In this document: positions 17,489-52,852 of the stretch, in pieces
Position numbering within the stretch: position 1 is the first letter of the stretch
How the letters are laid out: every line of letters begins with the position of its first letter
Assembly: GCA_026393115.1 (NCBI GenBank)
Contig: JAPLAU010000022.1
Location: 62,001 to 126,000 of the forward strand
DNA: 64,000 bases
Source: Actinomycetota bacterium
GTDB lineage: Bacteria > Actinomycetota > Actinomycetes > S36-B12 > CAIYMF01
Reading direction: 5' to 3'
Notes under the pieces: model-generated
Told to the model about the DNA's origin: nothing
Databases searched by the model: none
The model's input: the letters and a program-made list of their open reading frames with translations, nothing else
Program-made: the position numbers and the translations under genes

Positions 17489-17586
17489 GCGTCCGGGTCC
17501 GGCTCGTGGGCATCTCTTGACCAGAGAACCCCGAGACGGTGATCGATTGACCAAAGAAGTCCTAGACGCCCTGAGGATGGGGCGAT

Positions 17587-48326: not shown

Positions 48327-49202
48327 ATGACTGAGCCCCTCGACGCATTCGTGTCTGAGGGGCTCAGTGCTGTGAGGTTGCGGTTACTCGTGGCCTATGA
48401 CGGAACTGACTTCTGCGGGTGGGCTCGCCAGCCCGGACTTCGCTCTGTTCAAGGAATGCTCGAAGAAGCAATTGTCACCGCGCTGCGTCTGGATTCGATT
48501 CGGGCCGTGTGTGCGGGCCGCACTGACGCGGGAGTTCACGCCCGGGGTCAAGTGGTACACGTCGATATTCCAGTGAGTAGTTGGGACGTGGTGGCGCCGG
48601 TTGCGCTGCGCCGACTCAATGGGCTGCTCGCTGCTGATGTTCGCGTGCTGTCGGTCGAGCCCGCCGCACCTGGGTTTGATGCCCGCTGGTCGGCGTTGCG
48701 ACGCCACTATCGGTACCAGGTGAGCGATGGAGTCGGAGATCCTCTGCGGCGTACGACGTGTGCGCATCACGTTGACCCTCTCGACGTTGACCGGATGAAT
48801 GTGGCGTCACAGTGGTTGTTGGGTGAGCATGACTTCGCCTCGTTCTGTCGTGAACGAGAAGGCACGTCATCAGTTCGCACACTTCAGCGCTTCGACTGGG
48901 TTCGCGACGACGATGGTGTGGTGACGGCACACGTCACTGCCGACGCGTTCTGTCATTCGATGGTGCGCTCCCTGGTAGGGGCACTACTTCCCGTGGGTGA
49001 TGGGCGTCGCGCGATCGACTGGCCAGCCCAACTGCTGGCTGCGCGAATGCGTGATGCTGCCGTCACCGTTGCTCCGGCTCGCGGCTTGGTATTGCAGGCG
49101 GTCGACTATCCCGATGACGCGTTGCTGGCCGATCAGGCGCGAGTGGCCCGACGGTGGCGCGGCGCACCTCAGGACAACCCGATCACTCAGGGCAGCGCAT
49201 GA
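48327..49202 (+). CDS. truA: tRNA pseudouridine(38-40) synthase
   Basis: A 291-residue TruA. The catalytic Asp67 lies in CAGRTDAGVHARGQVVH. RRLNGLLAADVRVL, FDARWSALRRHYRYQVSD and DAFCHSMVRSLVGALLPVGD are typical. The ATG follows GGAG and is 13 bases after rplQ. It overlaps the ABC-F gene by 4 nt. Confidence 0.97.
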   Translation: MTEPLDAFVSEGLSAVRLRLLVAYDGTDFCGWARQPGLRSVQGMLEEAIVTALRLDSIRAVCAGRTDAGVHARGQVVHVDIPVSSWDVVAPVALRRLNGLLAADVRVLSVEPAAPGFDARWSALRRHYRYQVSDGVGDPLRRTTCAHHVDPLDVDRMNVASQWLLGEHDFASFCREREGTSSVRTLQRFDWVRDDDGVVTAHVTADAFCHSMVRSLVGALLPVGDGRRAIDWPAQLLAARMRDAAVTVAPARGLVLQAVDYPDDALLADQARVARRWRGAPQDNPITQGSA

Positions 49203-50896
49203 GTCACGTCGACGTTGCCCACGTCACCTACACGCTTCCTGATGGTCGAGTACTTCTCGACGACGTGAGTCTGCGTGTGGGCGATGGTGCGGTGGCAGCC
49301 TTTGTCGGTGCCAATGGTGCGGGTAAGACGACACTGATGCGACTGATCTCCGGTGAGCTCACTCCCGATGCGGGGGCGATCACGTTCAGCGGAAGCCTCG
49401 GCGTGATGTCACAGTTCATCGGTAAGGATGCGCAGGCAGGGGGAGTGGGTGGCACGGTTCACGACCTGCTGATTTCGGTGTCACCGCCTGCATTGCGTGC
49501 CGCGGCACAGGCGCACGATGCTGCTGAATTGGCGATGATGGACGCCGACGACGAGGCGACCCAAATGCGTTATGCCCAAACGATTTCAGACTGGACAGAT
49601 GTGGGCGGGTATGACGCTGAGGTGCTGTGGGATGTCGTGTGCACCTCGGCGTTGGGACTTCCCTATGACCGCGTGCGTTACCGCGATGTTGCCACGCTGA
49701 GTGGCGGCGAGCAGAAGCGATTAGTGCTCGAACTACTACTGCGCGGGCCTGACGAGATTTTGCTGTTGGACGAGCCCGATAACTACCTCGATGTTCCGGG
49801 CAAGCGATGGTTAGAAGAGCAGTTGCGCGCGACTTCCAAGACGGTGCTGCTTGTTTCGCATGATCGCGAGCTGTTGGCGCAGAGTTCGACTGTCATCGTT
49901 ACGGTTGAACTCGGGGCCGCGGGCAATTCCGTGTGGACTTTCGGTGGAGGCTTCGCCGCCTACCATCAGGCCCGCAATGAACGTTTCGAGCGCTTCGAGG
50001 AATTGCGTCGTCGTTGGGATGAAGACCACGCCAAACTCAAAGCCCTGGTGTTGATGTACAGGACGAAGGCGGCCTACAACGACGGGCTTGCCTCGCGGTA
50101 TCAAGCGGCCGTCACTCGCCTGCGCAAGTTCGAAGAGGCGGGTCCGCCTCAGGAAATTCCACGCGAGCAATCGGTCACGATGCGACTGCGGGGAGGGCGC
50201 ACCGGCCGACGAGTTGTGGTGTGTGAAGAACTTGCGATGACGGGTTTGTGCGAGCCGTTCGACCTTGAGGTGTGGTTTGGTGAGCGAGTCGCACTGTTGG
50301 GCGCCAACGGTTCGGGCAAGAGCCACTTCCTGCGGCTACTGGCGTTGGGCGGCACTGATCCCGAAGTGGAACATCGCCCGGTGGACGATGTGCCGATTAC
50401 TCCGGTAGCGCATACCGGAATTGCTCGGCTTGGCGCGCGGGTGCGGCCGGGATGGTTTGCGCAGACGCATGCGCACCCTGAGCTTGCAGGGCGCACCCTG
50501 CTCGACATCTTGCATCGCGGGGACGACCACCGTGACGGTATGGGTCGCGAGCAGGCCAGTCGCGCCCTTGACCGGTACGAACTCGCGGCGGCTGCCGAGC
50601 AGTCCTTCGATCTGCTGTCAGGCGGCCAGCAGGCTCGCTTCCAGATTCTGCTGCTCGAGCTTTCCGGAGCGACGTTGCTTCTGCTTGATGAGCCGACCGA
50701 CAACCTCGATTTGCACTCGGCCGACGCCTTGCAAACTGCGCTGGAGGCGTTTGAGGGCACGGTGGTTGCGGTGACGCATGATCGTTGGTTCGCGGGAGGC
50801 TTCGACCGCTTTTTCGTACTGGGTGCCGACGGGCGGGTGCGCGAGACCGACGGCCCCGTCTGGGATGAGGCCCGACTTGCACCGCGGGAGCGGTGA
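49199..50896 (+). CDS. ABC-F family ATPase (ribosome-associated type)
   Basis: A 565-residue protein with two ABC domains and no membrane spans. NBD1 has GANGAGKTT, LSGGEQKRL and LLLDEPDNYLD. NBD2 has GANGSGKSHFLRLL, LSGGQQARF and LLLDEPTDNLD. A basic helical linker lies between about 255 and 320 (RFEELRRRWDEDHAKLKALV). ABC-F proteins act at the ribosomal E site; some protect against antibiotics, others aid translation. Which applies here is open. It is coupled to truA and interrupts the usual truA-rplM order together with the DUF559 gene. Confidence 0.93.
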   Translation: MSHVDVAHVTYTLPDGRVLLDDVSLRVGDGAVAAFVGANGAGKTTLMRLISGELTPDAGAITFSGSLGVMSQFIGKDAQAGGVGGTVHDLLISVSPPALRAAAQAHDAAELAMMDADDEATQMRYAQTISDWTDVGGYDAEVLWDVVCTSALGLPYDRVRYRDVATLSGGEQKRLVLELLLRGPDEILLLDEPDNYLDVPGKRWLEEQLRATSKTVLLVSHDRELLAQSSTVIVTVELGAAGNSVWTFGGGFAAYHQARNERFERFEELRRRWDEDHAKLKALVLMYRTKAAYNDGLASRYQAAVTRLRKFEEAGPPQEIPREQSVTMRLRGGRTGRRVVVCEELAMTGLCEPFDLEVWFGERVALLGANGSGKSHFLRLLALGGTDPEVEHRPVDDVPITPVAHTGIARLGARVRPGWFAQTHAHPELAGRTLLDILHRGDDHRDGMGREQASRALDRYELAAAAEQSFDLLSGGQQARFQILLLELSGATLLLLDEPTDNLDLHSADALQTALEAFEGTVVAVTHDRWFAGGFDRFFVLGADGRVRETDGPVWDEARLAPRER

Positions 50897-50923: not shown

Positions 50924-50982
50924 CGAGACCCCGCTCCAGCGTCACTTCCGCACCCCTGAAGTAGCACTGGAGTGGGGTCTCG
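50924..50982. repeat. 59-bp palindromic element, copy 1
   Basis: An imperfect inverted repeat with 25-nt arms and a 9-nt loop. The outer parts (CGAGACCCC and GGGGTCTCG; CTCCAG and CTGGAG) pair fully. It lies between the converging ends of the ABC-F and DUF559 genes, so it may act as a two-way terminator. Copy 2, same length and orientation, is about 1.1 kb away. Confidence 0.93.
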
Positions 50983-51019
50983 GCGTGCTGGGTTGACGCT
51001 GAGGAGAGATTGGGCGCGT

Positions 51020-52033
51020 TCACGCTGCCGCATGTAGGGCGCGCAGAATGCGTAGACGTACCTTCCACGGCTCGTTCATCAGTTCGTCCCAGGTCCAGCG
51101 CACCACGATGTAGCCGAGGTCGCGCAGTCGCTGCTCGCGTCGTCGCTCGGCCAGCAGTACGCCGTGCTTCTCGTACTTGCCCGCTCCGTCAGCCTCGCCA
51201 ATCACGCGAGCGTCGCGCCACAGGAAGTCGACGCGGCCCACGAAACCCTCCTCATCGTGGATCGTCACTTGCAGCTCCGGAAGCGGAATGCCCCAGTCGA
51301 CGAACTCGGCGTACGACACCGACTCGAGGGGCGATTCGCGCAGTGGGCTCAGCAAGGGAAGGGCTCGGGCGACTCGGCGGCACCCTCGGAAATTGGCGGC
51401 TTGCGTGGCGGCTGACGCTATCTGCTCGCGGCTGCACAGACGATCGCGTAGTACCGCATCTCCAACGGCGAGGGCATGGGCAAGCGGGCGTGTGCGAGCG
51501 AGATCGAACCAGGTACGTGCTGGCGTGGTGACTCGTACTCGTTCGTCGTTCACGAGGGCTGGGCCGTCTCGGGGCGGCAGCGCCATCGACTCGCCCTCTC
51601 CTAACGCAAGGCCGTGCAGTCGCGCGCCCCTGCGAATGCCGGTCCAGCCACCGGCGGGCGCGACCAGTTCGACGCTCCGTGGTGCAAACAGTAGGGGCAG
51701 GCCATGAACCAGTGCCGCCGATTCCAGTGCCACCACGGTGCCTGGTAGCGCGCTTGCAGCGGATGCCGCCAGTGCGGCGTGACGCACCTCGCGCCTCTTC
51801 CATTCGTCGTCGATAGTCGCGAGTGCCGCGGCGCGCACATAGCGCCCGCGCCCGATCGTTTCCCAGAGCCCGGTTGCGACTCGATAGCGCACCTGCGCCC
51901 GACTCAATTCGGCCTGCAACGCCTCGTCGAGCGATACGGCCACGCCAAGGCCGGGCGGGTCGATCAGGCGGCGCGGCATGAGGTGCAGCATGGCCGAATC
52001 TGGCGATGTGCCGCCTCGGTCATCCACAGCCAT
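51020..52033 (-). CDS. DUF559 domain protein with AbiEi-like N-terminal region
   Basis: A 337-residue protein. Residues of about 25-215 resemble the AbiEi antitoxin-like family of actinobacteria: RVATGLWETIGRGRYVRAA, a strand-helix region with ALESAALVHGLPLL, and VTTPARTWFDLAR. The last 110 residues form a DUF559/Vsr-like nuclease-fold domain: YAEFVDWGIPLPELQV, GRVDFLWRDARVIGEADGAG with acidic residues of a PD-(D/E)XK-type site, and RREQRLRDLGYIVVRWTWDE. The start shown is 4 bp from palindromic copy 2, so the ribosome binding site would be inside the hairpin; in-frame ATGs at 51991 and 51979 are alternatives. No toxin partner is adjacent. Function unknown; often many paralogues occur per genome. 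Confidence 0.8.
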   Translation of the reverse strand: MAVDDRGGTSPDSAMLHLMPRRLIDPPGLGVAVSLDEALQAELSRAQVRYRVATGLWETIGRGRYVRAAALATIDDEWKRREVRHAALAASAASALPGTVVALESAALVHGLPLLFAPRSVELVAPAGGWTGIRRGARLHGLALGEGESMALPPRDGPALVNDERVRVTTPARTWFDLARTRPLAHALAVGDAVLRDRLCSREQIASAATQAANFRGCRRVARALPLLSPLRESPLESVSYAEFVDWGIPLPELQVTIHDEEGFVGRVDFLWRDARVIGEADGAGKYEKHGVLLAERRREQRLRDLGYIVVRWTWDELMNEPWKVRLRILRALHAAA

Positions 52034-52036
52034 CGT

Positions 52037-52095
52037 CGAGACCCCGCTCCAGCGTCACTTCAGTGCTCGTGAAATCGCTCTGGAGTGGGGTCTCG
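52037..52095. repeat. 59-bp palindromic element, copy 2
   Basis: Same length and orientation as copy 1. The left 25-nt arm is identical and the outer 16 nt of the right arm are identical; the 9-nt loop and inner right arm differ. It begins 3 bp before the annotated DUF559 start codon. Confidence 0.93.
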
Positions 52096-52104
52096 GCGAA
52101 TTGT

Positions 52105-52185
52105 GGGCGCGGTGGGTTCGGTGGGTTCGGTGGGCGCGTTGGGTTCGGTGGGTGTGACGAGGATGGGGTAGGGCGGGGGCGGGGG
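52105..52185 (+). repeat. G-rich tract with GGG every 9 nt, then a compact G4 motif
   Basis: Six GGG runs begin at 52105, 52114, 52123, 52132, 52141 and 52150, within GGTGGGTTC-like units. A tighter motif follows at 52165-52185 (GGGG-TA-GGG-C-GGGGG-C-GGGGG). Both could form G-quadruplexes. The gap between the DUF559 gene and the rplM promoter contains no open frame that I can support. Confidence 0.85.
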
Positions 52186-52408: not shown

Positions 52409-52852
52409 GTGCGCACGTACCAGCCCAAGGCCGCCGACGTTCAGCGTCAGTGGCACATCATTGACGCCAACGACGTGATCCTCGGTCGCTTGGCCAGCCA
52501 GGTCGCCATTCTCCTACGCGGCAAGCACAAGCCGACCTTCGCACCGCATGTTGACACCGGCGACTTCGTCGTGGTCATCAATGCCGAGAAGGTGGCCCTC
52601 ACGGGTGCCAAGCTCACCGACAAGATGGACTACCGCCACTCTGGATACCCGGGTGGCCTGTCGGCCACCAGCTATGTCGAGTTGCTTGAATCCAACCCCC
52701 GACGCGCTGTCGAGAAGGCCGTGAAGGGCATGCTCCCGCACAACAAGCTTGGCCGGGCGCAGATCAAGAAGCTCAAGGTCTACGCCGGTCCCCACCATCC
52801 TCACGGTGCTCAGCAGCCCGTGCCCTTCGAGATCACCCAGGTTGCCCAGTGA
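52409..52852 (+). CDS. rplM: 50S ribosomal protein L13
   Basis: A 147-residue L13, early assembly protein. [57 protein letters not shown] and [11 protein letters not shown] are conserved. GTG start. Overlaps rpsI by 4 nt. Confidence 0.98.

Follow-up and report, generated by a model that had tools for sequence, protein, structure and literature searches.

The locus analysed here raises the question of why a single DUF559 gene should be bracketed by two similar palindromes, and of how the encoded protein may be related to them. We addressed it in a stretch of 64,000 nt (hereafter the window) from a 3.5-Mb draft genome, G000, which we compared in particular with G001, the sister species and its sole same-genus relative. 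Extracted loci are denoted by L-numbers, while T27, T37 and T39 designate DUF559-linked palindrome families. The features of the locus are reported in Table 1.

Table 1. Arrangement of the bracketed DUF559 gene and its surroundings (positions within the window).
Feature	Position	Strand	Remarks
ABC-F gene	49154..50896	+	Flanks the unit; directly upstream of rplM in most family relatives
Left 59-bp palindrome	50924..50982	+	Arms of 25 nt, loop of 9 nt; the ABC-F and DUF559 genes converge on it
DUF559 gene, 337 aa	51020..52033	-	AbiEi-like N-terminal DNA-binding region and C-terminal Vsr/EDxHD-type nuclease domain
Right 59-bp palindrome	52037..52095	+	Same orientation as the left one; adjoins the 5' end of the DUF559 ORF
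CGAATTGTGGGCGCGGTGGGT tail, ~9-bp repeats	52091..52153	+	Similar tail also at the solo copy G000:C23:69578 (read from the sequences)
rplM	52409..52852	+	Flanking gene

The size, arms, loop and common orientation that a preliminary description had attributed to the two elements agree with those in the table, and so does the identity of their left arms (CGAGACCCCGCTCCAGCGTCACTTC) and of the outer part of their right arms, which extends over 16 nt. Compared over 63 bp, the two are 87% identical. When folded as single-stranded DNA, the two palindromes reach -18 to -20 kcal/mol (z about -5 to -6), and none of 200 shuffles was as stable. As the first ATG of the 51020-52033 ORF lies right against the palindrome, translation may in fact begin at an internal Met. 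The same description placed the gene between truA and rplM; this holds on the rplM side and fails on the other, where an ABC-F gene follows truA, so that the unit lies between ABC-F and rplM. The comparison with empty sites that had been proposed was informative, since family relatives carry ABC-F and rplM without a DUF559 gene: the two are separated by about 175-350 bp in 8 of the 15 family genomes having rplM, and by about 760 bp in a ninth, G016. Because of this close spacing in 8 of 15 genomes, the comparison suggests that the window unit was probably acquired within this genus. The relatives' ABC-F/rplM sites were found to contain no palindrome remnant, so that simple homing into a pre-existing palindrome gains no support there.

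The search for the element in the genome and its relatives, also proposed beforehand, led to the identification of extra copies in both species, with four copies in G000 (two beyond the bracketing pair) and five in G001. No further copy was present within the window, and no convincing one in 164 other genomes of the order, where the three BLAST matches retrieved (L054-L056) fall in coding sequence and appear to be due to chance. Likewise, viral contigs yielded no exact match to the left arm, and Rfam returned sub-threshold chance matches only. In G001 the bracketed DUF559 gene is retained at the same place, split across two contigs, and a copy adjoining trpB is common to the two genomes. In addition, the gene surrounded by two window-type palindromes at G001:C139 (L020 6396-7780) encodes a DmpA-like peptidase instead of a DUF559 protein; no counterpart of the flanks of this locus was found in G000.

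To extend the analysis beyond the window, the left flank of each DUF559 gene was compared with its right flank, and a bracket was scored when the two shared a repeat at E<1e-5. Genes were drawn from the family, a bacterial genome collection and the class Actinomycetes, with near-duplicates removed (n=99); this comparison was more sensitive than a hairpin-only scan, which missed many brackets. Brackets were detected around 58 of the 99 genes versus 2 of 177 shifted control windows of the same size (Fisher p 5.6e-30), so that the earlier question of whether DUF559 genes are flanked more often than by chance can be answered affirmatively; the remaining 41 genes had no bracket in this test. The bracketing repeats have a median length of 68 bp, lie in the same orientation in 39 pairs and inverted in 19, and are palindromic in 34 of the 58 cases by a criterion of 60% self-complementarity. 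A DUF559 match is present in 136 of the 198 class genomes. Repeats of different genes matched in 12 of 14 pairs of proteins at least 70% identical and in 4 of 1256 pairs below 30% identity, a confinement of matches mainly to similar proteins that is expected for orthologues as well as for co-divergence.

The palindromes taken from bracketed genes were then searched in whole genomes, and the distinct places among the matches listed were counted by eye. Each DUF559 gene has its own palindrome, mostly of about 45-90 bp, and dispersal of these sequences is seen in many families. Specifically, among the matches listed there are about 43 places in G007, 36 in G258, 18 in G002, 13 in G003 and 8 in G265, a complete genome in one contig, while in G000 about 16 places are occupied by T37 and about 14 by T39; among those listed for one of the searches, all palindrome copies are in the genome with the cognate DUF559 gene. 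The L051 palindrome had no copy beyond its pair. Palindromes are found alone as well, and pairs may enclose other genes, such as those for the DmpA-like peptidase and a polysaccharide deacetylase. The likeness to REP elements with their RAYT transposases, with a nuclease in place of the RAYT, had been drawn from the window; it is now supported beyond it by the bracketing and by the dispersal of cognate palindromes, and neither a lack of further copies nor a lack of linkage to DUF559 genes was observed. Two further T37 arrangements were noted. The window itself holds a solo palindrome of this different DUF559-linked family (ATCTCTTGACCAGAGAA...) at 17509-17562 (G000:C25:79509-79562, L222), and in G001:C5 (L247) extra copies near the L037 gene, two of them just 70 bp apart, form a small array.

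Concerning the protein, the window gene product matches DUF559 (E 2.6e-6, residues 268-333), with an AbiEi_4 match below the Pfam cut-off and a PADLOC AbiEi match for its N-terminal part. An AlphaFold2 model of the DUF559 protein (pLDDT 90, pTM 0.85) retrieved in Foldseek searches the AbiEi antitoxin 6y8q, Rv2827c, the catalytic domain of I-Bth0305I (3r3p; E 0.009, probability 1.0, TM 0.72 to the target) and, more weakly, Vsr (1vsr; probability 0.90), AbiEi alone passing E 0.001. Across an alignment of 31 sequences, E237, D269, E280, G283 and R299 do not vary, and D282 hardly does. Taken with the model, these residues assign the predicted nuclease domain to the EDxHD/Vsr-like type. dN/dS values of 0.10-0.21 in five orthologue comparisons, and of about 0.2 for the window gene versus the sister species, show that the coding sequences have evolved under purifying selection on the protein.

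Both units and solo palindromes have been gained or lost between species. For most solos of G000 an orthologue is present in G001; the solo site at G000:C9:41109 is clearly empty there, and the solo at G000:C23 is missing with an untidy boundary. No clean target-site duplication was found at the sites compared. G000 was rejected as an empty site for the L051 unit (G001:C224), as L183 (G000:C1:11500-18000) has an actinorhodopsin-like gene between the same neighbours, and the L037 site in G000 was likewise discarded, because its palindrome contains an IS-like sequence and a contig ends there. One unit (L027/L028) is 97-100% identical between two species and has flanks of 80-92% identity, with an identity tract that extends past the two palindromes by about 25 bp on one side and about 15 bp on the other; such a tract is consistent with homing-type copying of the gene. 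The earlier suggestion of a mobile unit gains from this palindrome-bounded tract and from the variable occupancy, which support whole-unit mobility and fall short of demonstrating it.

T39 copies vary little in their outer arms, and their inner 23 nt differ from one genome to the other. The mean similarity to copies of the same genome exceeded that to the orthologue in 9 of 9 orthologous G000/G001 pairs (Wilcoxon p 0.004; the G000 side of L215, taken alone, is tied), a count that omits two pairs 100% identical between the species (L226/L259 and L237/L271, with contig flanks 93-98% identical), which were set aside after being seen and bring T39 to 9 of 11 if counted. The opposite was obtained for T37, with 0 of 10 pairs. 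Therefore, in this comparison of two families from one species pair, aligned copies reveal in-place rewriting of the palindrome in one family, T39. At the L215 locus (G000:C28:76500-81000) two T39 palindromes bracket the polysaccharide deacetylase gene, with about 224 bp duplicated, and G001:C107 (L248) has one palindrome. At the end of G000:C22 (L184/L155) an IS-like sequence is apparently inserted in a T37 palindrome, and the adjoining 794 bp are 99.9% identical across two species.

All together, we consider it probable that the window unit is a member of a widespread actinobacterial system in which a gene for an AbiEi/Vsr-EDxHD nuclease is paired with a cognate palindrome that the nuclease recognises, cuts and homogenises. 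According to this model the protein, perhaps as a dimer, would recognise the palindrome as a duplex or as an extruded hairpin and would cut or nick it, and repair from another copy would homogenise the palindrome family. Occasionally, the whole palindrome-gene-palindrome unit might be copied between genomes, and a palindrome might arise at a new site, so that the pair would behave as a partly domesticated selfish pair, with the layout of REP/RAYT and the chemistry of a homing endonuclease. The palindromes are about as long as the target of nearly 60 bp on which I-Bth0305I dimerises (review, PMC3943268). A nuclease cutting dozens of chromosomal sites would be toxic, and the activity must then be restrained, nicking or structure-specific. 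The small size of the window family, at four or five copies per genome, the absence of solo copies for L051, the brackets on unrelated genes, the 41 DUF559 genes without a bracket and the limited number of repeats scored as palindromic (34 of 58) are points against the model.

As a first alternative, the palindromes could be REP-like non-autonomous elements, moved by single-strand hairpin transposition through a RAYT-like DUF559 protein or an unlinked HUH transposase, with the DUF559 gene as a passenger or accessory. Their hairpins, intergenic placement, dispersal and presence or absence as solos are REP-like traits, and the same layout of a gene beside repeats is described in the REP literature (PMC8266576), but we regard this explanation as unlikely in view of the PD-(D/E)XK/Vsr-like fold and of the lack of HUH similarity in family and fold searches with the protein. 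Moreover, each DUF559 gene has its own palindrome, a pairing that an unlinked enzyme would not explain.

The placement of the solos bears on a second alternative, in which the palindromes would be bidirectional terminators or insulators around a gene in need of isolation, and the solos terminators between convergent genes. A heuristic ORF call on 31 solos of G000 placed 27 of them in intergenic DNA and 13 between convergent genes. The convergent setting, which is also that of the left window palindrome, accounts for about half of the solos classified, and these are often found 1-60 bp from a stop codon. However, no terminator-like site was found at the left window palindrome by a search allowing loops of 3-8 only, the right window palindrome stands at a 5' end between divergent genes, and brackets hardly ever occur around shifted control windows. 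Plain terminators would also not be expected to have family-specific sequences or to be rewritten in place, and we hold this explanation to be quite improbable.

We rate just as low the possibility that an AbiEi-like protein, either an antitoxin-type regulator or an anti-phage nuclease acting in defence, uses the palindromes as operators or as protected self-sites, their dispersal being incidental. The AbiEi-like N-terminus and a weak C-terminal similarity to large anti-phage nucleases would fit such a role, but the nuclease residues are conserved, the neighbours of the window gene are ABC-F and rplM with no AbiEii toxin gene beside it, and the downstream copy and dozens of solos would be left unexplained. 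Plain terminators, a plain AbiE system and a plain insertion sequence were also considered and rated low.

The preferred reading, a nuclease paired with its own palindrome, can be compared with known systems. Like the REPtrons formed by REP/REPIN sequences and RAYT (TnpA-REP) genes, it combines short, dispersed intergenic palindromes with a gene of low copy number that has palindromes on one or both sides and a sequence class of its own, and no relative on plasmids or phages was found for the one protein tested, L036 (PMC8266576, PMC8049555). Unlike in REPtrons, the place of the HUH Y1 transposase is taken by a Vsr/EDxHD-like nuclease that has an AbiEi-like domain, the palindromes are mostly of about 45-90 bp, the copy numbers are lower and one unit has a species-to-species identity tract; a GTAG-type tetranucleotide was not seen by eye in copies of the window, T39, T37 and T27 families. 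As searches with the protein revealed no HUH transposase, we propose a REPtron-like system, with a homing/Vsr-type nuclease instead of the HUH transposase, rather than a REPtron.

The EDxHD homing endonuclease I-Bth0305I provides the closest solved nuclease domain, but the genes studied here were not seen in an intron or intein, and they differ from its type in their AbiEi-like N-terminus and in being bracketed by repeated palindromes that also occur alone genome-wide. Vsr and Vsr-like DUF559 proteins, such as Caulobacter VsrA, belong to the same nuclease superfamily and share the DUF559 domain; Vsr and VsrA are mismatch-repair proteins linked to cytosine methylation, and the main text of the VsrA paper does not contain the term 'palindrom' (PMC12907096). 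AbiEi antitoxins share the N-terminal fold and family matches (6y8q) and lack the added nuclease domain; their toxin partner was not seen in the window. Finally, the unit differs from an insertion sequence or transposon in having no recognised transposase, by ORFs and family search, and no clean target-site duplication.

Our searches of the open-access literature returned no publication that connects DUF559 with palindromes or presents such a system, and reports elsewhere are possible. Since the enzyme is also unrelated to HUH proteins, the system seems to be an as yet unreported parallel to REP repeats and their RAYT transposases, with an enzyme of the homing type at its core. So far, REP repeats have been associated with a single class of enzyme, the HUH RAYTs, and the repeats' mode of spread is open (PMC8266576, PMC8049555); a second, unrelated enzyme class with a REP-like layout, common in actinobacteria, would represent an independent case of palindromes colonising genomes. 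More tentatively, and with a confidence just short of even, we suggest that the dispersed palindromes of a family are recognised, spread and homogenised by their own homing-type (Vsr/EDxHD) nuclease through its AbiEi-like and catalytic parts, as a gene drive on repeats in which enzyme and palindrome co-diverge, and that this constitutes an unrecognised class of repeat system. The proposal gives DUF559, a large family with no known function, a role that can be tested, and the system could be a source of nucleases with long sites and matched targets. A separate arrangement was noted in G007:C33 (L291 12425-12883), where a small Vsr-like ORF lies beside a CGCTTTGGATGG-type palindrome pair enclosing an unrelated ORF.
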